This document shows, piece after piece, positions 48,350 to 59,852 of a DNA stretch of 60,189 nucleotides. The position numbers were made by a program, and so were the translations under genes. The notes under the pieces are model-generated. The model was not told the DNA's origin, ran no database searches, and saw nothing but the letters and a program-made list of their open reading frames with translations. This DNA comes from Pseudomonadales bacterium (GTDB taxonomy: Bacteria; Pseudomonadota; Gammaproteobacteria; Pseudomonadales; JAHRWD01), in the NCBI GenBank assembly GCA_016763075.1, contig JAESUM010000046.1:1-60189 (forward strand). The letters run 5' to 3'. Position 1 is the first letter of the stretch. Every line of letters starts with the position of its first letter.

Positions 48350-49417
48350 CTACTGCTGAATCGGCAAATGGATCGAAAAACGGGTGTTTCCGGGGTTGCT
48401 GTCGCATTCAATCGAGCCATGGTGTTGGTTGATGATGGAGCGGCTCAGCGGCAGCCCCAAACCTGTGCCATTGGCTCTTCCGCTCACCATCGGGTAAAAA
48501 ATACTGTCGATAAGTTTTTCATTAATGCCGGGGCCGTTGTCTATGACTTCGATCAAACAAGTAAGCCGATACCGGCTGGTTCCAATGGTGAACTGTCTGA
48601 GCGTTCGGGTGCGCAATGTAATGCGTGGGTTAAGCGATGGGTCGTCACATCGCTCGAGCGACTCCATGGCGTTACGCACGATATTGAGTATGGCTTGAAT
48701 CAGGAGTTCACGGTCTGCGGTGATGTCTGGAATACTGGGGTCGTAGTCGCGGATAAACTCAATCGGGTTTGGCGATTCAACCTCAACCAGTAACCGTACG
48801 CGCTCTAATACTTCGTGGATCGACAGCGGCACCATATTGGGTAAATTGTTGGGTCCGAGCATTCGATCCACCAAATTTCGGAGCCTGTCGGCTTCCTCAA
48901 TAATGACTTGGGTGTACTCTTTGTCTTCTTCTGGCAGTTGTCGCGCCAACAGTTGAGCTGCACCACGAATGCCACCTAACGGGTTTTTAATTTCATGCGC
49001 AAGGCCACGAATCAAGGTTTTGTTGGCTTGATTGGAAAAGACCGAAGCTTCTTCACGAGCGATTCGTAATAACCTGTCGAGGGGTTGGATCTCCATTAAC
49101 AAATCAGTGCCGGTCGACGAAGCAATAGGTGTGACGGTGTAGTCGACGGTGATGCTTTTTTCATTAGCTAGCGTGATTTTTGTTCGACGTTTGCTAAAGG
49201 GATTGTTAAAGGCAATGGCATTTTTAAGCGACTGAAGCGACTCTTCAGTTTCACGTAGGATGTGGGATATGTCGGTTCCCATGACACGGTTGCCACTGAC
49301 ATCGAGCAGGTTTTCGGCTGCCGGATTGATGTATCGCAACTTCAAGTCTGAATTAAGCAACAACACTGAAGTGGATAAGTCTTCCAGAATCAGTTGGTAA
49401 ACTTCCGAATTATTCAT
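48350..49417 (-). CDS. ntrB: Nitrogen regulation sensor histidine kinase NtrB (GlnL)
   Basis: The 355 aa cytosolic kinase has a PAS domain (about residues 5-115), H-box RGLAHEIKNPLGGIRGAAQL with His near residue 140, N-box NIVRNAMESLER near 240, and G-boxes DNGPGINE and GTGLGLPLSRSI near 290-325. It phosphorylates and dephosphorylates NtrC under control of PII, which GlnD (also in this window) modifies. A candidate NtrC box lies about 170 bp upstream. Confidence 0.97.
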   Translation of the reverse strand: MNNSEVYQLILEDLSTSVLLLNSDLKLRYINPAAENLLDVSGNRVMGTDISHILRETEESLQSLKNAIAFNNPFSKRRTKITLANEKSITVDYTVTPIASSTGTDLLMEIQPLDRLLRIAREEASVFSNQANKTLIRGLAHEIKNPLGGIRGAAQLLARQLPEEDKEYTQVIIEEADRLRNLVDRMLGPNNLPNMVPLSIHEVLERVRLLVEVESPNPIEFIRDYDPSIPDITADRELLIQAILNIVRNAMESLERCDDPSLNPRITLRTRTLRQFTIGTSRYRLTCLIEVIDNGPGINEKLIDSIFYPMVSGRANGTGLGLPLSRSIINQHHGSIECDSNPGNTRFSIHLPIQQ

Positions 49418-49819
49418 TTAGCTTCTCAAATGCACGTTAATGTGGACTAAGCAAAAATTGAACCAATGTATCGATTCTCTACAACGCACGAATATTGCGC
49501 GTATTGGCCGCTTTGATGTGAATAAAATCATGAGGCGCTGCGCTCGGCGGGCAAATATTTGCGAATACGTTAAGTATTGCACATATTTGGTGCGCTGTAG
49601 TGGCAAGGTATTGAGATGTTTTCAGAGTTATAGCGGGTAGATTTTGTTATTTGCCTGGACAGAGCTGGGCTGAACAAGCCCACGGGCCGAATATATTCAG
49701 TTGACGCTTAGGTGGCGTATTCAATCGTTGGTGCGATCAAAGCATTGGTTTTGCGAGGTTGGGGTAACGGATAGTGCAGAGGAAAAGAGCAGTAACAAGG
49801 CGCAAATGAGACGTTGAGA
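49418..49819. other. Intergenic region upstream of ntrB
   Basis: About 400 bp between ntrB and the DUF4124 gene, both on the minus strand. It contains a candidate NtrC box and a 6-bp inverted repeat TGGGCT/AGCCCA (near 49667-49683) without a T-tract. Short open frames here resemble no family. No sigma-54 -24/-12 element is convincing. Confidence 0.5.
49578..49594 (-). promoter_or_regulatory. Candidate NtrC binding site upstream of ntrB
   Basis: TGCACATATTTGGTGCG has both half-sites (TGCAC and GGTGC) at the spacing of the classical 17-bp NtrC palindrome (TGCAC, 6 bp, GGTGCA). The centre differs from the consensus. It lies about 170 bp before the ntrB start, so autoregulation of ntrBC is plausible. 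Inference from sequence only. Confidence 0.45.
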
Positions 49820-50398
49820 TCAAGGGCGCTTAAAATGTTGTTTTACGTGAACCGTAATCGCGGAACTGCTTTTTAACACTACGCCGGTAGTGCTGTCGAT
49901 CACCTGCGCGGTTATTTGGTATGTGCCACGGTTGATCTCATTCAGTTCAAAACGACCGCTTTGTTGAGGCTCTGATGCGGCGCTGCCGTCCAGTAAAATT
50001 TGTATTTGATGCTGGCTCAGCAGTGCTGGCGTAATAGCCACCGCAACGGATAATTGCCCTGACTGGTTACGGATCACTTGGTCGTGGCTAGGGGATTGAA
50101 TAGACAGGGTTTCGTAGTTGTTTAAAGGCGTGTTCGTAGGTTCCGTGCTGGTAGCTGCAAAGGGGAAACCAGCCGTCTTTGCAGGGGTATGGGTATTGAG
50201 TGGCTCTAACACCATAGGTTTGGCGTTATTAGTTTGAATATCGCTAAATACAGCAGCCCCTGTTCTGTCTTTCGACTGATATATTTCAGCGCTAGCGATG
50301 CTTGAGCAGCCCAAACTCAGTATTAAGCCCGCGAGCAAGGGCATTGCTTTCATCGCTATGAAGCGGGTAACCGTAAAAAACTGTTTGGCGATTTTCAT
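49820..50398 (-). CDS. DUF4124 family periplasmic protein
   Basis: About 192 aa from ATG 50398. A long N-terminal region ends in a signal-like segment (LLAGLILSLG, then SIASA) and the typical DUF4124 motif IYQSKDRTGAAVFSD, in which an aromatic/Lys/Asp/Gly beta-hairpin is expected. The rest has beta-rich, low-conservation sequence resembling an Ig-like fold. A second ATG at 50353 gives a shorter signal peptide and could be the true start. Function unknown; a DUF4124 gene next to ntrBC is common in relatives. Confidence 0.7.
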   Translation of the reverse strand: MKIAKQFFTVTRFIAMKAMPLLAGLILSLGCSSIASAEIYQSKDRTGAAVFSDIQTNNAKPMVLEPLNTHTPAKTAGFPFAATSTEPTNTPLNNYETLSIQSPSHDQVIRNQSGQLSVAVAITPALLSQHQIQILLDGSAASEPQQSGRFELNEINRGTYQITAQVIDSTTGVVLKSSSAITVHVKQHFKRP

Positions 50399-50681
50399 GG
50401 TGTGCAGGCACTCGGCGTTAAAATAATGAACAAAACCAAATTCTAGTGATTTGGAGCAGGGATGCAATGGCAGCCCATTCACTTGTGCGGGCTGATGCTA
50501 GTTTTGGTTAAAACGTTGCGCTGGCTTTGGGCTGAAGTGGTTATGTTTTGAGTCAACTATGGCTGCAAATGGCTGGGGCTTAAAGCGGCACTATTTTAAG
50601 TGCCACTATTTTAATGCAGGGCCAGTTCAAGTGGCTTTAGTTATAAGTAGTTATAGTTTTAAGCGCCTCAAACAAAAGCGA

Positions 50682-50921
50682 TCAGTCTTCCTCTTCGTGT
50701 ACCACTTCTATTTCAAGTGTAATAATTCTGCCGGTTTGCCCGCTATCTAGCAGTTTATGACCGTTTATGCGGCACCAAGCGGGAATATCGCTTAATACGC
50801 CTGGGTCTGTACAAGTGACTTCCAGAATGTCACCCGATTGCAGCGTAGCTATTTTATCCTGCGTTCGGATCACTGGCATGGGGCACAATAGGTTTTCGGC
50901 ATTCAGTTGGAAAGTGCTCAT
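50682..50921 (-). CDS. TusA-like sulfur carrier protein
   Basis: The 79 aa protein has NAENLLCPMPVIRTQDKIATL near residues 7-27; the Cys of CPxP is the persulfide carrier of the TusA family. The rest fits the two-layer alpha/beta fold (ILEVTCTDPGVLSDIPAWCR). It overlaps the stop of the PP-loop gene by 4 bp, so the two are coupled. The pairing suggests it hands sulfur to that enzyme, as TusA does through TusBCD-E to MnmA. Confidence 0.9.
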   Translation of the reverse strand: MSTFQLNAENLLCPMPVIRTQDKIATLQSGDILEVTCTDPGVLSDIPAWCRINGHKLLDSGQTGRIITLEIEVVHEEED

Positions 50922-51958
50922 ATGTACCAGCTCTGCGGGATCTCTGTTGGGAGTATCGGTGTGACTTCAAGTACTTTAGATTGGCCGTCTGGGAATGTTG
51001 CCTTCACCTGAACTAGTTCAGCTTGTTTACCTTGGCTGAACCGAGCCGCAATACGCGCTGCAACTTCAATGTTGTCTGCGGTAGGTTCACCATCAATCAA
51101 GGTTAATGGGCCGTTGTGGCTTATTGTGCGCAGGTGCAAAAACTGCTTTCGGTACCCTTCGAGGAAGTTATTTTCCCCCTCTTCGCGGCTGATGATCATT
51201 TTGAAATTAGGCGCTGGGCGTATATGACGGCCAATTTTTAATAACATAATGTCGTCAAGTTCGTAGCGTTTTTCACCACGAAACTCCCATAAATCCGCGA
51301 GTTTTTTGGAATAGGCTTCGTCAGTTAAAAAGCAGCAACCGCCCGCAGGTTGTGCGAACTCTTCGAACCCAAGTTTGTCTGCCAGCTCAATTTGCGGTTT
51401 ACGGCTACGGCCACTAAAGCCAAATAGCTCATCACGCTTAATCCAGCCTTCTCGTTCCGGCAGGGTAGCAGGTAAGTTTTGCGCGCAAAGTGGCCGTAAT
51501 AGACGGTCGTGAGCACCGGACTCCCGGGCGATAATGGGCATGGTTTCTTTACGCTGAGACTTTGGCCGTTGACCAATCACTTCGCCTGTAATGATGAAAT
51601 CAAAGCCGTTATCGTTGGCCCAATCTAGCGCCTTATTGACCATAAATATTTTGCAGTCCAGGCACGGGTTAAGGTGCGCGCCGTAGCCATGCTTGGGGTT
51701 GATGACAATATCTTTGTATTCTTCAGCAATGTCGATGATGTGTAGCTTCATCCCCAGCTGTTCAGCGCTCCAAAGGGCGTTGTTGCGCTTTGGTTTGGCT
51801 TTGTCTTTTTTGCGGATTGCGTGGGTGTGGCCCTCTACACAAAACCCCGTGTAGAAATTGATGCCTTCAACATGAATACCTTGGTCTTGAATTACTTTTG
51901 CAGCTAAAAGTGAATCCAGTCCGCCGGAAATGAGCGCGACCGCTTTACGTTTTGTCAT
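50918..51958 (-). CDS. MnmA-like PP-loop ATPase, probable tRNA or small-molecule thiolation enzyme
   Basis: The 346 aa protein starts with the PP-loop ALISGGLDSLLAAKVI (residues about 8-23), typical of adenylating thiolases and N-type ATP pyrophosphatases. A Cys pair NPCLDCKIFM lies near residue 98 and another, AGGCCFLTD, near 205, matching the two catalytic Cys positions of MnmA-like enzymes. The last about 120 residues form an extra domain of unknown role. It is not the canonical MnmA and is coupled to a TusA-like gene, so sulfur insertion into an unknown substrate (tRNA is the leading guess) is inferred. Confidence 0.75.
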   Translation of the reverse strand: MTKRKAVALISGGLDSLLAAKVIQDQGIHVEGINFYTGFCVEGHTHAIRKKDKAKPKRNNALWSAEQLGMKLHIIDIAEEYKDIVINPKHGYGAHLNPCLDCKIFMVNKALDWANDNGFDFIITGEVIGQRPKSQRKETMPIIARESGAHDRLLRPLCAQNLPATLPEREGWIKRDELFGFSGRSRKPQIELADKLGFEEFAQPAGGCCFLTDEAYSKKLADLWEFRGEKRYELDDIMLLKIGRHIRPAPNFKMIISREEGENNFLEGYRKQFLHLRTISHNGPLTLIDGEPTADNIEVAARIAARFSQGKQAELVQVKATFPDGQSKVLEVTPILPTEIPQSWYI

Positions 51959-52549
51959 AATATGAATGGTTTTAAATGGAAGTAGTAGGGAGTGTGAAAA
52001 ACGTCAGGTACTGTAGATCAAAGTAGGTTATCAGCGGAATTTTTTGCCAATTAACATTAAATACAAAAAAGTTAGCGAGCGATTGCTGATGTCTGAATCT
52101 ATGAGGCCTGTATGGTTAAAACTAAGAGTTAAAGTGCCGCCGCGCAAAGCGATAGGCGTTGCTATAAACAAGGCTCGAATTGTAACAGAATTCCTAGAGG
52201 CGCCGGCCCAATAGATGAAATATTGTTCGGTGGCTGTGCTATCTTTGTCGGTATAAACATAATTTAGCGTTAAACATATGTTAAACCTAACCGCGTTACG
52301 GCATTCACAAATACCTTCGGGTACGCGTTGGGTAAGCATTGAGTGCTTGCTCAGCACCGTGAAAAGTGTCAGGAAATTATACAAAATCATTGTTCACTAT
52401 GCGGTGTTTTGGCTTAAGCGCCTGATAAGTATGTGTATTTTTTAGATGGTATGGTAATTGCTTTGATTGGCGTATAACTGTAATTTGGCATACCGCAGTA
52501 TATGTAATAAGTCGGTATGCGAATAAATTTTATTTGAGCGAGATACGAA
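51959..52549. other. Intergenic region before the HPr-rel-A-type cassette
   Basis: About 590 bp between divergent units, AT-rich. A 119-codon minus-strand open frame (52031-52390) and a 41-codon plus-strand frame (52089-52214) resemble no family and I do not call them. A minus-strand TACAAT near 52175-52180 might be a -10 for the PP-loop gene. The end near 52490 carries an inverted repeat listed separately. Confidence 0.5.
52488..52520. promoter_or_regulatory. Inverted repeat upstream of the HPr-rel-A-type cassette
   Basis: Perfect 8-bp arms GCATACCG (52488-52495) and CGGTATGC (52513-52520) are separated by 17 bp, ending 29 bp before the first start codon. A TTGGCA hexamer overlaps the left arm. 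It could be an operator or a 5'-leader hairpin; the sequence does not decide. Confidence 0.45.
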
Positions 52550-53398
52550 ATGAGTGACAAAATTCCAGGCCAAACCGAAAGCGAAGCTGAAAACAACCAG
52601 GTTGTTGATGTGTCGGTCGAATCTAATTTGAACCCTTCGCGAAGAAAGTTTGCTAAGGCCGGAATCATTGCACCTATTGTATTAACGGTTGGTGCTCGGC
52701 CAGCATTTGCCAATATGTGTAGTATCTCTGGCGGCGGAAGCCCCGGCTCTAATCAACAACAACCAGATGCTTGTTTGGGTTGTACACCTGGGTACTGGAA
52801 GCGCAACGTTCACGCTTGGCCCAATATTATGAGTGCAGGTATTACCGGCGTTGATGGTTTGGAACCGGCTGAAGGTACTTGCAGTCCGACTTCTACCGGT
52901 AACGTAAACTCAACATGTAAAGTTTACTTGAACGACGGTACTAGATTTGACGATATATTCACCAATGCTCAGAACCTCCTGTTGTCGGGAGTTACATTCG
53001 GTACGTTGGAACTTAATGGTGTAACTCCTGGCCAGGGCGACTTGGTTGATGGAAGCGTGGTAGAGGGTGACTATTTCGTTCAGGTCAACGATGCGAGTGC
53101 TACTCCGGCGGTTCCAACCTTAGGTTATTACGATATTAGTATTATGCAGGTGCTCTGGTTAGATAAAAGCAGCGCCCCTGTTACGGTTGCATTGGCCTTT
53201 CATCTTGCGGCTGCGTTTCTTAACGCCATGAGCTTTCCGGATGAGTACGGTTATAACCCTGCCGATATTATTAAAATTTATGATGATGCTATGGCTGGAG
53301 TATTTCCTGTAGGCATTAGTGATCTTGAAGGACTTAAAAACCAGCTGGATACTATGAATAACCGAGGCTGTCCTCTGTCGGGCAACGCTAACGCGTAG
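52550..53398 (+). CDS. Tat-exported Cys-containing protein of the HPr-rel-A-type cassette
   Basis: 282 aa. A polar N-terminal leader of 30 residues is followed by the Tat motif SRRKFAKAG (Arg 31-32), a hydrophobic stretch IIAPIVLTVG, and a cleavage site after ARPAFA (residue 54). The mature part has six Cys (near residues 57, 75, 78, 114, 122 and 275) and CLGCTPGYWKRNVHAWP near 75-91, a motif seen in assorted exported proteins of unknown function. No catalytic motif is visible. It is the first gene of a four-gene cassette with a PqqD-like protein, HprK-like kinase and nucleotidyltransferase, so it is the natural candidate substrate of that machinery. I infer this; no function is known. Confidence 0.75.
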   Translation: MSDKIPGQTESEAENNQVVDVSVESNLNPSRRKFAKAGIIAPIVLTVGARPAFANMCSISGGGSPGSNQQQPDACLGCTPGYWKRNVHAWPNIMSAGITGVDGLEPAEGTCSPTSTGNVNSTCKVYLNDGTRFDDIFTNAQNLLLSGVTFGTLELNGVTPGQGDLVDGSVVEGDYFVQVNDASATPAVPTLGYYDISIMQVLWLDKSSAPVTVALAFHLAAAFLNAMSFPDEYGYNPADIIKIYDDAMAGVFPVGISDLEGLKNQLDTMNNRGCPLSGNANA

Positions 53399-53411
53399 TG
53401 ACCAGCCTTCG

Positions 53412-53696
53412 GTGACAGTGTTCTGGAAAAAATCCCAGCAATTTCAGTGGGGTCAGCGGCAATGGAGTAATGGTGCGCTGCTTTATAATCAAAGCTCAGG
53501 CGATACGCACTATTTAGACCACGTATCAATGTTGATCGTGAGTTTACTTGAAGATGCTCCTCTAGATATTACGAATATTCAGAGCGAGCTGGCGGAACAG
53601 TCAGCAGAAATTATAGAATTGCCCAATAATCATTTCGCATTGCAGACCATGGTTGCTAACTTGCAGCGCATAGGTCTCATCGAAGTCTCATCTTGA
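53412..53696 (+). CDS. PqqD-like protein of the HPr-rel-A system
   Basis: 94 aa from GTG 53412. The sequence SNGALLYNQSSGDTHYLDHVSMLIVSLLED is the winged-helix PqqD fold (beta strands then helices), which in RiPP systems binds precursor leader peptides. It matches the PqqD branch defined for the HPr-rel-A cassette. Its TGA stop overlaps the TTG start of the kinase gene (TTGA, 53693-53696), so translation is coupled. It starts 13 bp after the Tat-exported protein. Confidence 0.8.
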   Translation: MTVFWKKSQQFQWGQRQWSNGALLYNQSSGDTHYLDHVSMLIVSLLEDAPLDITNIQSELAEQSAEIIELPNNHFALQTMVANLQRIGLIEVSS

Positions 53697-54601
53697 ATAT
53701 ATCTGAAATTACAGAAAGCCAGCTTTCTGAACGCTTAAGCGGCCCAGGCCTGATTCTTCAGGCTGGCCCTTTCGTTACACGCCTGCATTCCTCTATTGCG
53801 CTTTTGGCCAAAGGTATTCACGGGCTTTACGCTGACTACCCCATTATCGACGAAGATCTTTTTGTCGATTTTCACGTCCGAGTGAACCCACCTGTTGGGC
53901 TGCGTCGTTGGTTTCGGCCGCAAGCACGTTTTAGGTTTGATAACTTTAAGCCCTTTACGCCTTTACCCCTTAATCAAGCGGTTCCTATTTTTGAGTGGGG
54001 GCTGAACTGGTGTATTTCTAATTACGCACATCAATACCTCATTGTTCACTCAGCGGTTGTAGAGCGAAACGGCGTTTCTATTATATTCCCGGCACCGCCG
54101 GGTTCTGGCAAAAGCACACTGTGCGCGGCGCTGGTTTCTAAAGGCTGGCGGCTGTTATCGGATGAAATGGCGCTGGTAGATCGTAAAGATATGCAACTAG
54201 TGCCCGTGCCCCGGCCTGTAAGCTTAAAAAACCAATCTATTGACCTGATTCGCGATTACGCGCCAGACATGTATGTAGGAAGCTCAACACCCGGCACAAC
54301 TAAAGGAACCATTGCTCATCTGGCAGTGCCAGAAAGCTCTATTAAGCGCCAGCACGAAAAGGTAAAGCCCAGCTATATTGTATTTCCAAAATACAGCGCC
54401 GGCGCCGAGCCAGTATTGCAACAAATGTCTAAACCGTTAGCAGGCATCCGGCTGATTGAAAACTGCTTTAACTACCATGTGCTTGGTGAAGAAGGCTTTG
54501 ATCTAATTACTGAACTGGTTGATGTTTGCGAGTGCCTCGAATTTAATTACTCAAAATTAGATGACGCATTGAGCATTTTTAATGAGTTATCTGAGCAATG
54601 A
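53693..54601 (+). CDS. HprK-related kinase A
   Basis: The 302 aa protein has the Walker A motif FPAPPGSGKSTL with Lys about residue 140, and LLSDEMALVDR near 162 (an acidic Walker B-like motif). Both match the C-terminal domain of HPr Ser kinase/phosphorylase. The N-terminal about 110 residues are not the usual HprK N-terminal domain. No HPr (ptsH) gene is in the window. It probably phosphorylates a small molecule or protein, perhaps the exported protein or a shared substrate. TTG start coupled to the PqqD-like gene; the ATGA overlap with the next gene (54598-54601) couples that too. Confidence 0.85.
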   Translation: MNISEITESQLSERLSGPGLILQAGPFVTRLHSSIALLAKGIHGLYADYPIIDEDLFVDFHVRVNPPVGLRRWFRPQARFRFDNFKPFTPLPLNQAVPIFEWGLNWCISNYAHQYLIVHSAVVERNGVSIIFPAPPGSGKSTLCAALVSKGWRLLSDEMALVDRKDMQLVPVPRPVSLKNQSIDLIRDYAPDMYVGSSTPGTTKGTIAHLAVPESSIKRQHEKVKPSYIVFPKYSAGAEPVLQQMSKPLAGIRLIENCFNYHVLGEEGFDLITELVDVCECLEFNYSKLDDALSIFNELSEQ

Positions 54602-55713
54602 AAAAGTCAGCAGAGCTACGCAGTTATCCGCTTTTGTTAAGCATACTGGCCAACCCAAAGGCGATCAGTGACCTAACGATTACCCAATGGAACGAGCTGA
54701 TAAGGCTTGCTCGGGTATCGGATCTTTTAGCTAATTTATATGCAAGTTTTGAGCGGCTTAACTTGCTAGAAGCTATTCCAGAAAAACCGCTGCTGCATCT
54801 GCGCTCTGCGCAAACCATGACCGATAAACACGAGCAAACCATCGTGTGGGAAGCTGTGCAAATTAGCGCAGCGCTACAGCCGCTGAATGCACCGGTGGTG
54901 CTGTTAAAAGGCGCGGCCTATTTACTCCAAGGGTTAACTGCATCGAAAGGGCGAGTTTTTCACGATGTCGACGTCATGGTGCCAAAAGCCAGTATTGATG
55001 CCGCGGAACCAGCGTTTAAAGATGCCGGTTGGATGGGCGCCAAACAAGATGCCTACGACCAGCGCTACTACCGTGAATGGATGCACGAGCTACCACCGAT
55101 GAGCCACTATGCGCGTTGTGTCACCTTAGATCTTCATCACACTATTATTCCCCCTACTGCAGCGCTGAAACCAGATGCGTCAAAGTTATTTGATGCAATT
55201 GTTCCAGTGAAAAGTCATCCGGGGCTATATACCTTAAGCCCTGTCGATATGGTTTTACACAGCGCAACACACCTGTTCTACGACGACGAAATTGGCCGCG
55301 GCATGCGAGATTTAGTCGACTTACATCACTTATTAACTGAGTTTTCCGCACGGCCCGATTTTTGGCCCAAATTGTTAGATAGATCGTTAGAGCTAGACTT
55401 AGATTACCCGCTGGCCTGCGCGCTCAAGTATTGCAAAGAGCTACTGCAAACGGATATTCCGAATGATGTGTTCACGAAAGCAAAGCAAAAACTACGCTTC
55501 CCCAACTGGATGATGGATAAATTGTTTGTGTATGGGCTAAAACCTGAGCACGAGCTGTGCGATAACTGGCCAACCAGTACCGCGCGTTTTGTGTTGTATG
55601 TGCGCTCACACTACTTGCGAATGCCGCTCTATTTGCTGGTGCCGCACCTGCTACGTAAGGCATTTCGCGAAGAGACCATCGAACCCATCGAAAATCCAAG
55701 ACCCCTCGGTTAA
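54598..55713 (+). CDS. Nucleotidyltransferase family protein (NTP_transf_5-like)
   Basis: 371 aa. The nucleotidyltransferase core is VVLLKGAAYLLQGLTAS followed by RVFHDVDVMVPK (residues about 98-127); the Asp pair in DVD probably binds metal. Downstream VTLDLHHTIIPP and HSATHLFYDDEIGRGMRDLVDLHHLL are typical of this uncharacterised nucleotidyltransferase family, often found beside HprK-like kinases or in capsule and RiPP-like loci. Start ATG overlaps the kinase stop by 4 bp. It may add a nucleotide to the product of the kinase. Substrate unknown. Confidence 0.8.
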   Translation: MKKSAELRSYPLLLSILANPKAISDLTITQWNELIRLARVSDLLANLYASFERLNLLEAIPEKPLLHLRSAQTMTDKHEQTIVWEAVQISAALQPLNAPVVLLKGAAYLLQGLTASKGRVFHDVDVMVPKASIDAAEPAFKDAGWMGAKQDAYDQRYYREWMHELPPMSHYARCVTLDLHHTIIPPTAALKPDASKLFDAIVPVKSHPGLYTLSPVDMVLHSATHLFYDDEIGRGMRDLVDLHHLLTEFSARPDFWPKLLDRSLELDLDYPLACALKYCKELLQTDIPNDVFTKAKQKLRFPNWMMDKLFVYGLKPEHELCDNWPTSTARFVLYVRSHYLRMPLYLLVPHLLRKAFREETIEPIENPRPLG

Positions 55714-55745
55714 AATCAAAACCAAAATCAGAGTAAAGGCGCGTT

Positions 55746-56138
55746 ATGTTTAGTGTGTTAGGGCTTGATCACCTCGTATTGCGAACCTCTAATTCTGCTG
55801 AACTTATACACTTCTACTGCAATGTATTGGGCTGCGCCGTTGCGCGCGAGCAACCTGCAATGGGTTTAACTCAGCTGCGAGCGGGCGATTCATTGATCGA
55901 TATTCTAGCGGTGAACGACGCGTTACGTGGCGAGCTAGCCACTGTAAATATGGACCATTTTTGCCTTCGCATCGAACCCTTTGATGAGGAGATGATTCGG
56001 GCGCATTTGTCCCTTCATAACATTGAGGGTAGTAAAGTGCGAAATGTATACGGAGCGCAGGGTAAAGGGCCCGCCATCTATATTACTGATCCAGATGGAA
56101 ATGCGGTTGAGTTGAAGGGGAAGGCAGGCGCTAGCTAG
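55746..56138 (+). CDS. VOC/glyoxalase-fold metalloprotein
   Basis: The 130 aa protein has two beta-alpha-beta-beta-beta modules. Likely metal ligands are His in LGLDHLVLRT (residue about 7), His in NMDHFCLRI (about 74) and Glu in DGNAVELKG (about 122). It belongs to the vicinal oxygen chelate family (glyoxalase I, fosfomycin resistance and dioxygenase types); substrate unknown. It lies 32 bp after the nucleotidyltransferase gene and may be part of the same transcript, though VOC genes are not a fixed part of HPr-rel-A cassettes as far as I know. Confidence 0.85.
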   Translation: MFSVLGLDHLVLRTSNSAELIHFYCNVLGCAVAREQPAMGLTQLRAGDSLIDILAVNDALRGELATVNMDHFCLRIEPFDEEMIRAHLSLHNIEGSKVRNVYGAQGKGPAIYITDPDGNAVELKGKAGAS

Positions 56139-56168
56139 GTTGGTTTTGAGCTAAAAGATAAGAGCACT

Positions 56169-56547
56169 TTAGAAAATTGGATGCTGCTCATATGCAACCA
56201 ATGCTCAAACCAACCCGATCAAACACATGCTGCTAAACACAGCCGGAGAGGCGATATCTTTGGCACGGCCAGAGAGCTCGTGGCGCTCCAGCCCTATTCG
56301 GTGAACGGTGGCTTCGATCGCGCTATTGAGCAGCTCTACAATCAAAAGAAGTACGAAACTGCCAATTAACAGGCTTCTCTAAGTGGTGTTTTGGCCCTAG
56401 CCATAACACAACAGGCACAATCACTAGCATTAAGCTGCCCTCTATTCGAAGCGCCTCTTCGTTTGTTCATGCGGCGCTAAAGCCAGCTGCTGAGTTGGGA
56501 AGCGCTGCTTTCATTCGTGGGGTGCCGGCTAAGTTTTGTCCTGCCAT
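56169..56547 (-). pseudogene. dgkA: Diacylglycerol kinase, broken by two nonsense codons and a frameshift
   Basis: Reading the minus strand from ATG 56547 (after TAGGAAG) gives a DgkA N-terminus that stops at TGA 56469-56467, exactly where the conserved Trp after the Ala-Ala of the family (RAAW) belongs. The frame continues NEEALRIEGSLMLVIVPVVL. A one-base gain (or two-base loss) near 56368-56371 shifts it. The next frame reads VELLNSAIEATVHRIGLERH followed by ELSGRAKDIASPAVF, the diagnostic DgkA core, then a second TGA (56207-56205) at another likely Trp position, and ends at 56169. Total length matches DgkA (about 125 codons). Not translatable as one protein, so a recent pseudogene. It lies 25 bp downstream of nth. 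Confidence 0.88.
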
Positions 56548-56571
56548 AGCTTGCTTCCTAGCGCGCGGTGA

Positions 56572-57206
56572 TCAGCCTGTTGCTTTTGGTTTGTAGTCGC
56601 ACAGGTCAGAGATTTGGCATTCGTAACACAGTGGTCTGCGCGCGGTGCACACATAGCGGCCATGCAATATTAGCCAGTGATGAGCATCGACCATAAATTC
56701 ACTGGGTATACGTTTAACCAATTTTTTTTCGACTTCTAGAACCGTTTTTCCTGGGGCAATACCCGTGCGGTTTGATACGCGGAAAATATGTGTATCTACC
56801 GCCATGGTCGGATGACCAAAGGCGGTGTTTAGTACGACATTGGCGGTTTTTCGGCCCACTCCGGGTAGCGCTTCAAGTGCTTCGCGCTCATCCGGTACAA
56901 CAGAGCTATGTTCATTCACCAAGATGTGGCAGGTTTTGAGGATGTTCTCGGCTTTGGTGTTGTATAAGCCGATGGTTTGCACCATTTTTTGAGCTTAGTG
57001 ATTCCCAAGTCGATAATAGCCTGGGGCGTATTAGCAACCGAGTACAGTTTTGCCGTGGCTTTGTTGACGCCGACATCGGTTGCTTGAGCAGACAGAATTA
57101 CCGAAATGAGTAATTCAAAGGTGCTGTTGTAGACCAGTTCGGTTTTTGGGTGTGGGTTTGCATCCCTAAAGCGGCCGAAGATCAGCCGCCTTTTTTCTTG
57201 GTTCAT
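56572..57206 (-). pseudogene. nth: Endonuclease III, interrupted by a single-base frameshift
   Basis: Two overlapping frames rebuild full-length Nth. The first (from ATG 57206) carries ILSAQATDVGVNKATAKLY and ends scrambled after ITKLKK. The second continues MVQTIGLYNTKAENI, the helix-hairpin-helix LPGVGRKTANVV with the catalytic Lys, and the Asp in AVDTHIFRV. It also holds the [4Fe-4S] Cys set C-x6-C-x2-C-x5-C near the C-terminus. One A is missing from a run of six (T at 56985-56990 on the plus strand); seven would restore the frame. This may be a sequencing error, because every key residue is intact. Confidence 0.9.
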
Positions 57207-57227
57207 TTTGCAGGCTCGGTAAAAGGT

Positions 57228-58055
57228 TCAGTCCGTTGGGTTTTCAATAAAATGCGGCTGAATGTTAGCCAATAATCCTTTAAAGCATTTGGGTGAACCG
57301 CAGACAATGTTGCCTGTTTCGTAATAGGCTGAGCCGCCTTTGAAGTCTGAAACCAAACCACCAGCTTCTAGTACCAGTAGCGCACCGGCAGCAATATCCC
57401 ACTCTTTTAGGCCCATTTCCCAATAGCCATCGTAGCGACCCGCTGCAACGTATGCCAAATCGAGCGCTGCGGATCCATTGCGGCGAATGCCAGCAGGCTC
57501 TGAAGACAATTTTTTGAAGATGGCCATATGATCGTTGAGATGTTTGGCTTGGTGTGGCTTGAATGGGAAACCGGTAGCAAGCAGCGCACCATCAAGGCCG
57601 GCTCGTTTGCTGACGCGGATTCGCTTGCCATTTAGCTGAGCGCCATCGCCCCGCGATGCGATGAATTCTTCGTTACGCATCGGGTCTATAATAACCGCAT
57701 GTTCCATTCGGCCATTGCGTAAACAGCCTACCGATACGCAAAAGTGTGGCAAGCCATGAATGAAATTAGTGGTGCCATCAAGCGGGTCAATAACCCACAA
57801 ATACTCTTCCTTGCCGCTTTTGGCAGGGTCAGAGCCGGCGATAAAACCAGACTCTTCGCCAAGAATAGCGTGTTCAGGGTAGGTGCGTTGTAGCTCAGCA
57901 ATGATGATTTTTTCTGCTGCGCGGTCTACTTCAGTTACAAAATCGTTTACACCTTTTGAGGTGATTTCAATTCGGTCAAGTTGTCCGACTGAGCGGGAAA
58001 CGAGGGTAGCGGCTTTGCGAGCTGCTCGCAGAGCAATGGTTAGCATCGGTTGCAT
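57228..58055 (-). CDS. suhB: Inositol-1-monophosphatase family protein SuhB
   Basis: 275 aa with the metal-binding motifs in order: GEESGFIAG near residue 68, WVIDPLDGTTNFIHG near 88, and KEWDIAAGALLVLEAGG near 216. Besides hydrolysing inositol phosphates, SuhB acts in rRNA antitermination in E. coli. It diverges from trmJ across a 185-bp gap, as in Pseudomonas. It lies 21 bp upstream of nth on the same strand. Confidence 0.96.
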   Translation of the reverse strand: MQPMLTIALRAARKAATLVSRSVGQLDRIEITSKGVNDFVTEVDRAAEKIIIAELQRTYPEHAILGEESGFIAGSDPAKSGKEEYLWVIDPLDGTTNFIHGLPHFCVSVGCLRNGRMEHAVIIDPMRNEEFIASRGDGAQLNGKRIRVSKRAGLDGALLATGFPFKPHQAKHLNDHMAIFKKLSSEPAGIRRNGSAALDLAYVAAGRYDGYWEMGLKEWDIAAGALLVLEAGGLVSDFKGGSAYYETGNIVCGSPKCFKGLLANIQPHFIENPTD

Positions 58056-58240
58056 GGTGTGGAATTCTTTTGTGTGAGGAGTAAAAGGGCGCGCATCATA
58101 ACAAAAATGTTAGTCTTTCGTTTGATTGAGATTAGCTTAATTTCATGGCTCGTCGATAAAAAAATAGCGTCCGATAAAGCTGTAATCTGTTAATGTTCGG
58201 CCCCAAAAATTGGTACGGGTTCTAAAGTAGACATATAAGT

Positions 58241-59041
58241 ATGAGTGAGAGTGGTTTTTTACAGAATGTACGGGTCGTTTTGGTTGGCACGAGCCATCCG
58301 GGGAATATCGGCGCATCTGCCAGAGCGATGAAAAATATGGGTTTGAGTCAGTTGGTTTTGGTTAACCCGCTAGAATTTCCAAGCGATCAGGCGGTTTGGC
58401 GGGCAGTTGGCGCCGCCGATTTGCTCGAGAACGCCCGTGTGGTGTCTAGTCTTGATGAGGCAGTAGAGGATTGCACGCTTGTGATTGGGACCAGCGCTCG
58501 CGGGCGCCGTATACCATGGCCGGTTTTTGAGCCGCGACGTTGCGCAGAAGTCATCGCTAGCGAGCCAGCTGGAAGCGCCATTGCGGTGGTTTTCGGGGGT
58601 GAGAAGATGGGTCTATCTAATGAAGACCTGCATCGCTGTAATTACCACTTAACCATTCCGGTTAACCCTGAATACAGCTCGCTTAACCTGGGCGCCGCTG
58701 TGCAGGTGGTTTGTTATGAATTGCGCATGAAGCAGCTTGAGCTGCTGCAGTCTGAGCCTGCCGCCGAAATGGATGGTTGGGACAGTGAATTTTGTCGGGC
58801 CGACCAAATGGAGCATTTCTACGAGCATTTGGAGCAAACCATGATCGATGTTGATTTTCACGACCCAGAAAACCCGCGCCAGCTGATGACGCGTTTGCGC
58901 CGCTTATTCAGCCGAACACGGCTCGATAAAATGGAGCTCAGTATCTTGCGGGGTATTTTGACCAATACTCAGCGCAACGCGTCTATCAATAAAGCTACGA
59001 ACCAGCCCGCGAAACCTAGGGGCAAACGAAAAGATAAGTAG
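58241..59041 (+). CDS. trmJ: tRNA (cytidine/uridine-2'-O-)-methyltransferase TrmJ
   Basis: 266 aa. The SPOUT N-terminal domain has VRVVLVGTSHPGNIGASARA at residues about 9-28, VVFGGEKMGLSNEDL near 112 and IPVNPEYSSLNLGAAVQVV near 134. The C-terminal about 80 residues form the extra TrmJ domain with basic tail. It methylates position 32 of several tRNAs. First gene of a trmJ-cysE-iscR run. Confidence 0.95.
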   Translation: MSESGFLQNVRVVLVGTSHPGNIGASARAMKNMGLSQLVLVNPLEFPSDQAVWRAVGAADLLENARVVSSLDEAVEDCTLVIGTSARGRRIPWPVFEPRRCAEVIASEPAGSAIAVVFGGEKMGLSNEDLHRCNYHLTIPVNPEYSSLNLGAAVQVVCYELRMKQLELLQSEPAAEMDGWDSEFCRADQMEHFYEHLEQTMIDVDFHDPENPRQLMTRLRRLFSRTRLDKMELSILRGILTNTQRNASINKATNQPAKPRGKRKDK

Positions 59042-59081
59042 CCGCTCGCAAGTCGCTAGTTAAGTTACTCAGGCACAAATT

Positions 59082-59852
59082 ATGTTTGAAAAAATTAAAG
59101 AAGATATTCAGTCGGTGTTTGACCGAGACCCGGCTGCACGTAACAGTTTTGATGTGTTGACGTTGTATCCGGGTTTGCACGCAATATGGCTGCATCGGTT
59201 GAGCCACATATTGTGGCGTAACGGCCTGAAATGGCTGGCGCGTTTTGTATCGAATATTGCCCGTACGCTAACCGGAATTGAAATTCACCCTGGCGCGACG
59301 ATTGGCCGGCGGTTTTTTATCGATCACGGTACCGGTGTAGTGATTGGCGAGACCGCTGAAATAGGTGACAACTGCACCCTTTATCATGGGGTTACCCTTG
59401 GTGGAACCAGTTGGGATGCCGGAAAGCGCCATCCTACTTTAGAAGACGATGTTGTCGTTGGGGCTGGAGCCAAAATATTGGGGCCAATTACCATCGGAAG
59501 AGGGGCGCGAGTTGGCTCCAATGCGGTGGTAACCAAAAATGCGCCACCTGAATCGACCGTTGTCGGAATTCCTGGTCGGGTCATCATTAAGGCCGTCGAA
59601 GAAGATTCAGAAAGTCGTAAAGCCTTGAATGAAAAGTATGGCTTTAACGCCTATGGTGTTGGCAATGGCGCAGAAGATCCGGTGGCACGCTCAGTTCATG
59701 CGATATTGGATCACCTGCATGCGGTTGATACCAAGATAGAAGGGATGTGTGGCGCGCTTTCTTCAATGGGAAATGACTACTGTGCAGAGGCGTTGCCCAA
59801 GCTCGAAGACGACCTCATCGAGCTTGGTGAAAAAAACCAATCTAATACTTGA
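59082..59852 (+). CDS. cysE: Serine O-acetyltransferase
   Basis: 256 aa, the shorter EpsC-like type with a brief N-terminal helical domain. The left-handed beta-helix carries [20 protein letters not shown] near residue 65 and [20 protein letters not shown] near 88, with active-site His residues. It makes O-acetylserine for cysteine synthesis, so cysteine and Fe-S cluster genes sit together. Its last codons overlap the IscR operator. Confidence 0.95.

Follow-up and report, generated by a model that had tools for sequence, protein, structure and literature searches.

A four-gene HPr-rel-A cassette, often linked to exopolysaccharide genes, that may modify its own exported protein

Organization of the cassette

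The window, a 60,189-nucleotide stretch of DNA from a Pseudomonadales bacterium (contig JAESUM010000046.1), carries at 52550-55713 a plus-strand run of four genes. The first (52550..53398, + strand; ATG start, 282 aa) encodes an exported partner, the predicted substrate. Thirteen base pairs further on (53399-53411) lies the gene for PqqD_rel_X (TIGR04353; 53412..53696, +; GTG start, 94 aa), a putative RRE-like peptide-binding protein by profile match and fold model. Profile matches assign the third gene (53693..54601, +; TTG start, 302 aa) to HprK_rel_A (TIGR04352), a predicted peptide-serine kinase, and the fourth (54598..55713, +; ATG start, 371 aa) to NTP_transf_5 (PF14907), a nucleotidyltransferase-like protein and predicted phosphoserine capper. 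The last three genes are joined by 4-bp overlaps, TTGA at 53693-53696 (PqqD/kinase) and ATGA at 54598-54601 (kinase/nucleotidyltransferase). Both overlaps, and the four plus-strand genes, are as the initial annotation had them.

How general is this arrangement? We compared 163 distinct loci, 124 in a first set (after removal of the duplicates L094, L122, L131 and L149) and 39 in a second set, taken in from 47 new phylum genomes over the kinase cut-off; L294, with a kinase below the cut-off, was excluded. Named loci were limited to the best 80 of 580, a choice biased towards the query, and their kinases were confirmed by tblastn, without TIGR04352 scoring. Cultured carriers of the cassette include Massilia aurea and Thiobacillus thioparus. 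Locus counts stand raw, shared descent included. Among the 124 first-set loci an exact -4 overlap is available 74 times between the PqqD-like and kinase genes and 73 times between the kinase and nucleotidyltransferase genes, in a count that picks the start codon nearest -4 and so favours that value. Since the next commonest offsets occur only 16 and 11 times, respectively, the overlaps are beyond chance.

The peptide binder and the enzymes

The PqqD-like protein scores 39.6 bits against TIGR04353 (cut-off 35) and the kinase 394.5 bits against TIGR04352 (cut-off 200); by these curated cut-offs both are members of HPr-rel-A. The Pfam model PqqD (PF05402) does not match the PqqD-like protein. Its AlphaFold2 model is confident (pLDDT 91.3), and its best Foldseek matches in the PDB are TbiB1 with leader peptide (5v1u/5v1v), followed by another lasso B1 protein (6jx3), at probability 1.00, TM 0.63-0.74 and E 3.0e-3 to 8.5e-3, none at E<=0.001. 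The model thus supports an RRE fold and a leader-binding role like that of lasso B1 proteins, in agreement with the initial annotation, which had taken the PqqD-like protein for a leader binder.

Are the enzymes equipped for catalysis? In the kinase, H119, G139, K140, T142, D157 and E158 are identical in 163/163 loci. BsfK and its relatives are reported to share an H-G-G-G-K-S-D-D motif (PMC10368454). Across our 163 kinases the His, the second and third Gly, the Lys and the first Asp of that motif are kept in 162-163 and the Ser in 161; the sites that differ are the last acid, which is Glu in every one, and the first Gly, which is replaced by Ala in 101 and kept in 62. The nucleotidyltransferase matches PF14907 over its full length (183.5 bits, cut-off 31.2; profile positions 3-248 of 249) and is the sole match to that model in the window's genome. 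Its residues K104, G105, R119, D123, D125 and H180 are kept in 153 of 155 aligned rows (154 loci); a sequence search for a solved relative returned none at E<=1. As far as sequence can tell, the catalytic residues of the cassette enzymes are intact.

The exported partner

The initial annotation held that an exported partner should recur beside other copies of the kinase, and it does. A partner with an RR signal adjoins the kinase in 156 of the 163 distinct loci (122/124 in the first set, 34/39 in the second). The seven with no partner within reach are L084 (at a contig end), L114, L270, L271, L283, L287 and L293. None of the partners tested is covered by a Pfam or NCBIfam model. For the window protein a Pfam search gave nothing at E<=1, and an NCBIfam search gave a single match (E 0.23), far under the cut-off of that model; its fold model has a pLDDT of 68.3, with no match in the PDB at E<=0.001.

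The twin-arginine-type signal, RRKFAKAGIIAPIVLTVGARPAFAN, spans residues 31-55 (52640..52714, +). It is of the S-R-R-x-F-x-K type (SRRKFAK) and fits the twin-arginine consensus. Of 148 cassette signals, 142 have RRx[FLM] and 103 the longer RRx[FLM]x[KR]. Partners of both types repeat RRx[FL]xK, frequently continued by P-hhh-T-L-x-S-R-P. T[LV]x[SN] is present in 99/148 cassette signals versus 1/30 in a control set, roughly half of which is read in the wrong frame. This recurrence across partner types makes the signal itself a candidate recognition element for the PqqD-like protein. The polar 30 residues ahead of it, to which the initial annotation had tentatively given that role, were rejected for lack of conservation: in a 35-row alignment only Met1 is conserved before RR, and one partner carries just five residues there.

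Does the protein then leave by the Tat route, as was first proposed? The RR-type signal stands, but a search of the window's genome (95%-complete) found no TatC, in a test whose control was positive in 11/14; the gene could sit in the missing part. At thresholds as lax as E<=1, the window protein is missing from the matches to TIGR01409, the generic TAT-signal model. The RR pair may therefore serve the PqqD-like protein or another export route, and the Tat route is uncertain in this organism.

Two unrelated partner types share a Cys-x-x-Ser. In type 1, that of the window, C-x2-S and two further serines lie just past the signal in 99 of 111 partners (shuffles 5.6%); in type 2, 37 of 41 partners have C-x2-S within their last 25 residues (shuffles 6.1%), with 1-14 residues after it. 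The motif as written is absent from 12 type 1 and 4 type 2 partners, and four second-set partners that are TPGYW-like or odd (L255, L269, L281 and L288) stand outside both counts, the type 1 pattern fitting L269 only. In the window the C-x2-S-x3-S-x2-S motif comprises Cys57, Ser60, Ser64 and Ser67 (52718..52750, +), by its conservation a predicted phosphoacceptor region, and is modelled at low pLDDT (blocks 54-55). Alignment A2 (45 rows, 19% mean identity) has five invariant columns, three of them Ser, and a second Cys, column C45, is nearly invariant in type 1; A2, like the 35-row alignment A3, consists of chosen rows from the type 1 set and omits its more divergent proteins.

Residues 75-282 (52772..53395, +) align as a CxxCTPGYW ... 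NNRGCPL domain. Copies of this domain also occur free in other proteins, with neither signal nor Ser motif, and for this reason it was rejected as a hallmark of the system.

Promoter and exopolysaccharide genes

Upstream of the cassette we matched a 17-nt PrsR-box-like enhancer, TGTCAGGAAATTATACA (52367..52383, +), which resembles motif 1 of the PEP-CTERM regulon. A sigma-54-type -24/-12 element, TGGTATGGTAATTGC (52447..52461, +), follows the box at a distance of 63 nt and precedes the ATG by 88 nt. The regulon as described has a motif 1 box, a spacer of 32-92 nt (mean 62.8) and a -24/-12 element (PMC1569441); the window box ends TATACA, where that source gives TTTACA. The pattern TGT-N8-T[TA]TACA has one plus-strand match in the window, the cassette box. 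By pattern, then, the window cassette carries a PrsR-box/sigma-54 promoter.

Is this promoter shared? We counted 152 of the 156 partner loci, leaving out L280 and L289-L291, whose partners were found by eye. The box occurs in 69 of the 152 upstream regions, where shuffles expect 0.9, and 51 of these 69 also carry the -24/-12 element at 77.9 ± 10.7 nt (shuffles 1.0). Half-site gaps of 6, 7, 9 and 10 gave 2, 4, 3 and 1 matches in boxed loci. Among 30 second-set loci tested only L255 has the box, so the promoter claim does not extend to the bulk of type 2 loci from other classes.

The window's genome encodes XrtA (338.4 bits) and PrsK (746.2 bits), both over their cut-offs. Across 369 class genomes, XrtA is over cut-off in 35 of the 41 with the kinase versus 38 of the other 328; of the six kinase genomes that fall short, three still show a weaker match and the other three lack any. 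Genes of the XrtA-system families (eight, with one representative of each tested) adjoin 65 of the 163 cassettes. By these counts the cassette is often linked to XrtA/PEP-CTERM exopolysaccharide genes, and within the window's own class and allied groups it often carries the PrsR-box/sigma-54 promoter. Neither the CxxS motif nor the PrsR/sigma-54 exopolysaccharide regulon had figured in the initial annotation.

Relation to known systems

The closest likeness is to the tailoring sets of lasso peptides (bsf, pseudomycoidin, paeninodin), which likewise combine a B1 protein (PqqD/RRE), an HprK-like kinase and a nucleotidyltransferase, and in which the peptide binder speeds the Ser kinase. BsfK, an HprK-like kinase, phosphorylates Ser3 of a lasso precursor, the PqqD-type BsfB1 greatly accelerates the reaction, and the cluster also holds bsfN, whose product is a predicted nucleotidyltransferase (PMC10368454). 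On pseudomycoidin, PsmK and PsmN lead to a Ser that is phosphorylated and then hexosylated (PMC9266682, PMC8498205). In the paeninodin and pseudomycoidin precursors the Ser lies near the C-terminus, as in type 2 partners. The lasso sets differ in their substrate, a short precursor; here it would be a protein with a signal, 74 to about 300 aa long as judged by the longest ORFs. Among nine neighbouring proteins tested (48350-59852) there was no lasso cyclase or leader peptidase.

The cassette also resembles the PEP-CTERM/XrtA system with its PrsK/PrsR/sigma-54 regulon (PMC1569441, PMC9850573) in its enhancer box, spacing and -24/-12 element; the two mostly share genomes and often a locus. Unlike PEP-CTERM proteins, the window protein ends ...NNRGCPLSGNANA, without a PEP-CTERM tail, and has its own modification genes alongside. 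SynChlorMet (ScmC, ScmD) couples an HprK-like to a PqqD-like protein as well, but its models score 30.8 and 15.7 bits here, far under their cut-offs of 125 and 100.

Is the system new? Its families had already been named in silico by NCBIfam, which qualifies the initial suggestion of an undescribed system. In the literature searched, no paper uses HPr-rel-A or TIGR04352/TIGR04353, and none was found for TPGYWK or for exosortase with PqqD. Compared by names alone, the HPr-rel-A models point to no exported partner, and neither a CxxS motif nor a regulon appears in them. Those names give neither substrate nor reaction; we propose one of each, with the Ser of CxxS as the residue concerned, and tie the cassette to an exopolysaccharide regulon of environmental bacteria.

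A proposed mechanism and its alternatives

With moderate confidence we read the cassette as making an exported protein together with the machinery that modifies that protein before export. The partner's serine pattern fits a serine kinase, which supports the partner as substrate, and we infer its modification on these grounds. The PqqD-like protein would likely bind the conserved signal segment and so present the precursor; the kinase would then likely phosphorylate the CxxS serine, in the window Ser60 first, with Ser64 and Ser67 as alternatives. The NTP_transf_5 protein may put a hexose or a nucleotidyl group on the phosphate, by analogy with PsmN, although this chemistry is uncertain. The marked protein would leave via its twin-arginine-type signal and might act in the exopolysaccharide matrix, a role suggested because the cassette and the XrtA/PEP-CTERM system share promoter type, genomes and often a locus. 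If so, tailoring enzymes of small antimicrobial-type peptides would mark far larger exported proteins too, and one secretion signal would serve also as a modification leader. In that exopolysaccharide regulon of environmental bacteria, a sigma-54-dependent PEP-CTERM protein is required for floc formation (PMC9850573).

What does the transferase add? It is conceivable, if rather less probable than not, that the partner is the substrate but that NTP_transf_5 adds a nucleotide (AMP, UMP or similar) and not a hexose, to the phosphoserine or to another residue. The family name and the conserved K-G and DxD residues would fit. PsmN we take to be a PF14907 member. Gene removal tied PsmN to the hexose on phosphorylated Ser (PMC9266682, PMC8498205), which speaks against a nucleotide; a review allows that PsmN could yet be a nucleotidyltransferase and that the sugar is added by a host enzyme (PMC9266682).

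Could the partner be a bystander? The true substrate of the kinase and nucleotidyltransferase might be a small molecule or a lipid-linked exopolysaccharide sugar, the exported protein being a separate matrix protein that shares only the operon and regulon. Exopolysaccharide neighbours do recur, 6 of the 124 first-set loci have a nucleotidyltransferase gene that points away from the kinase, and two loci have no visible partner: the L271 kinase directly follows a TIGR03087-cluster glycosyltransferase gene, and L270 adjoins a TIGR03108-cluster gene. We nonetheless think it unlikely, given the PqqD-like peptide binder in 157 of 163 loci, the CxxS serine common to two unrelated partner types and the peptide substrates of the closest characterised kinases.

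Two further readings fare worse. In the first, phosphoserine is an intermediate that is activated and eliminated, after which the C-x-x-S Cys forms a thioether ring on the protein; the fixed, conserved Cys-Ser distance of both partner types suits it, but the most recurrent neighbour clusters (ten representatives named) show no recognised lyase or cyclase and the second type 1 Cys (C45) could pair with the first, and we regard it as very improbable. The second, a carbon-sensing switch with the kinase as a metabolic regulator like HPr(Ser) kinase/phosphatase, draws on a distant homology in which HPr kinase chains align with the window kinase across the P-loop region, and deserves hardly any credence against 22.2 bits for TIGR00679 (HprK; cut-off 240), a second acidic residue that is always Glu and a steady linkage to the PqqD-like and exported proteins.

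Returning to modification of the partner, we mention an extension that is speculative and has a small chance of being right: HPr-rel-A could be a bacterial protein-to-polysaccharide linker. A Ser-phospho-sugar stub at CxxS of an exported matrix protein, built by the RRE-guided kinase and the phosphoserine-capping transferase, would anchor or prime the XrtA exopolysaccharide, and the signal peptide, doubling as modification leader, would confine the mark to protein bound for export.

Reach of the partner profile

The type 1 partner profile was built iteratively from the first loci and is therefore not independent of them. In 299 phylum genomes it finds 9, whereas 51 carry the kinase; it was rejected as a test for the whole system, and because it misses most kinase genomes, type 2 partners were looked for and found. 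As support for our main reading we also count 7 of the 369 class genomes in which the profile matches without a kinase over cut-off. Four of these match only from profile position 44-49, and so lack the signal and Ser motif. The other three match only positions 1-38 to 1-55, and two of them (L211 and L213) have short RR peptides adjoining PqqD and divergent HprK-like genes.

Recurrence of the cassette

Is the four-gene cassette a system in its own right? Its plus-strand open reading frames, the 13-bp gap and the two 4-bp overlaps reported in the initial annotation were all found again. An exported protein of 282 residues (52550–53398) is followed by a PqqD_rel_X protein (53412–53696; NCBIfam TIGR04353), an HprK_rel_A kinase (53693–54601; NCBIfam TIGR04352) and an NTP_transf_5 nucleotidyltransferase-like protein, NT (54598–55713; Pfam PF14907). 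The source is contig 31 of a 2.65 Mb assembly, 95% complete. On the minus strand an endonuclease-III-like gene (56572–57206) is, by eye, apparently split across two overlapping frames, seemingly a frameshift or assembly error.

Of 56 relatives, 8 have a kinase passing the TIGR04352 cut-off; so do 41 of 369 genomes of the class, the window's genome being included in both counts, and 51 of 299 genomes of a phylum sample. For the first set of loci, 12–14 kb, or the contig's extent, was fetched around 47 class or relative kinases and 80 named loci (the best 80 of 580); with the window, and with four duplicates removed, this gave 124 distinct kinases. Of these, 122 have an exported partner bearing an RR signal: a profile iterated on the same loci found 120, one more lies downstream of the cassette (L160) and another was picked out by eye (L173). 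No partner was found in the remaining loci of this set, L084, which stops at a contig edge, and L114. The second set, 39 loci fetched from 47 new phylum genomes, yielded 34 partners (30 by profile, four by eye). Pooled, the 163 distinct loci contain the partner in 156, PqqD in 157 and NT in 154, several NT gaps being contig ends or lying outside the fetched stretch. The co-occurrence check that the initial annotation had suggested thus came out in its favour, and we conclude that the cassette is a real and steady system. Judged by sequence, it belongs to the already named HPr-rel-A system.

The exported partner

The partners are of two types, the signal being the sole part they share. In type 1, to which the window's protein belongs, the signal precedes C-x2-S-x3-S-x2/3-S and a CxGxTPGYW domain. 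In an alignment of 45 chosen rows (19% mean identity), which leaves out divergent members, R2, C27, S30, S34 and S37 are invariant. The C-S-S-S pattern occurs in 99 of 111 first-set type 1 proteins versus 5.6% of shuffled bodies, and in type 2 a CxxS lies within the last 25 residues, followed by 1 to 14 residues, in 37 of 41 versus 6.1% of shuffles; these controls ignore shared descent. The type 2 C-terminal motif is typically [ST]-C-W-x-S-[FLI], and [ST]C[WLFYM]xS[FLI] fits 32 of 41. Four second-set partners (L255, L269, L281 and L288) stand outside both counts; only L269 matches the type 1 pattern. A partner subgroup (L289, L290, L291 and L292) ends throughout in FTCFASLQMPRG, with the CxxS set within this identical tail. 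The CxxS serine of the partner is the more likely target of the kinase.

Does the partner occur away from the kinase? The type 1 model matches 40 of 369 class genomes, seven of which lack a kinase that passes the cut-off. Four of these match only from model position 44–49; they are free TPGYW domains in larger proteins, with signal and serine motif both missing. Two kinase genomes (G069 and G302) have free TPGYW domains as well, and one genome, G348, has an additional full partner copy away from its cassette. The domain is C-terminal in larger proteins lacking RR signal and serine motif at L205:4026–5453, L206:4920–6812 and L209:1507–5493; that of L205 is covered by no Pfam model. The other three of the seven (L211, L212 and L213) match at the signal end only. 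L211 and L213 have short RR-signal peptides of 66–87 residues that lie beside PqqD and divergent HprK-like genes or between them, possibly a peptide-sized branch of the same system; on the 8-kb contig of L212, no PqqD or HprK-like gene was found. The HprK-like neighbours of L213:5653–6885 (three peptides in a row) and L211:4946–5209 fall below the TIGR04352 cut-off.

The putative modifying enzymes

The PqqD-like protein has a confident predicted structure (pLDDT 91.3). Among solved structures, its top hits are leader-bound lasso B1 proteins (TbiB1, 5v1u and 5v1v; then 6jx3), at probability 1.00 but with E no better than 3e-3. In the kinase, the His, the P-loop GxGK and the first Asp are kept in 162–163 of 163 and the Ser in 161; the second acidic residue is Glu in all 163. 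HPr kinase itself is ruled out, at 22.2 bits versus a cut-off of 240. The K-G, R and DxD of NT are kept in 153 of 155 aligned rows.

In two divergent loci, L216 and L217, the PqqD and kinase regions lie within a single open frame (the Pfam match is PqqD for L217 and Hpr_kinase_C for L216); because both are fused in one frame, these loci support cooperation between PqqD and kinase. In L217 a 71-residue RR-signal peptide adjoins the frame. An NTP_transf_5-like gene adjoins the fused frame in both (L217:1559–3065, L216:2095–3261).

What might these enzymes do? The HprK-like BsfK phosphorylates a lasso precursor strictly at Ser3, greatly sped up by the PqqD-type BsfB1; bsfN, a predicted nucleotidyltransferase of the bsf cluster, is not characterised in that account (PMC10368454). 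The C-terminal Ser of pseudomycoidin is phosphorylated by PsmK, and the one or two hexoses on it require PsmN, according to reviews (PMC9266682, PMC8498205); alternatively, PsmN may be a true nucleotidyltransferase, with a host glycosyltransferase adding the sugar (PMC9266682). From these precedents we propose that the PqqD-like protein would bind the partner, the HprK-like kinase would phosphorylate it, NT would cap the phosphoserine and the modified partner would then be exported. The earlier logic that the machinery modifies its own exported protein is thereby largely retained, with PqqD, kinase and NT predicted to act on the partner; its choice of the polar N-terminal tail as the PqqD recognition element is not, the signal being judged likelier. 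A generic-signal control, 30 readings set against 148 cassette signals for T[LV]x[SN], was poor, about half of the readings being wrong-frame by eye. We file the cassette as a new form of RRE-guided kinase/nucleotidyltransferase tailoring, the modification being predicted; lasso, PEP-CTERM and HPr kinase were all set aside as its identity.

Export route and regulatory setting

The initial annotation called the partner Tat-exported. Signals of the family fit the twin-arginine consensus, other cassette genomes carry TAT-signal matches, and TIGR01409 is over cut-off in 11 of 12 genomes, the window's own being the sole exception. Since TatC had no match in that 95%-complete genome and TIGR01409 did not match the window's exported protein, a Tat route is doubtful in this organism.

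Clustering of neighbours around the 163 loci gave recurrent families, with representatives over the cut-offs of eight XrtA/PEP-CTERM exopolysaccharide models (TIGR03108, 03027, 03088, 02917, 03016, 03087, 03007 and 02916); 65 of the cassettes have at least one of these clusters alongside. XrtA passes its cut-off in 35 of the 41 genomes with a kinase versus 38 of the 328 others, an odds ratio of 44.5 that ignores shared descent. The window's genome has XrtA and PrsK, on contigs other than the window's.

The region preceding PEP-CTERM genes in proteobacteria is described as having a 17-nt motif that ends in TTTACA, then a spacer averaging 62.8 nt and a sigma-54 element (PMC1569441). Of 152 regions upstream of cassettes, 69 contain a TGT-N8-T[TA]TACA box versus 0.9 in shuffles, which again ignore shared descent, and 51 of the 69 have a −24/−12 element at 77.9 ± 10.7 nt; wrong half-site gaps yield just 1–4. 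The sole plus-strand match in the window, TGTCAGGAAATTATACA (52367–52383), is followed 63 nt later by the sigma-54-type element TGGTATGGTAATTGC (52447–52461, plus strand). In the first set, 62 of the 111 type 1 loci and 6 of the 11 type 2 loci carry the box; in the second set just 1 of 30 does. We conclude that the cassette's setting, as read from the DNA, is a sigma-54 exopolysaccharide regulon. A trypsin-like/HtrA-like protease cluster occurs in the fetched flanks of 31 of the 163 cassettes (L093:7611–8390 and 30 others).
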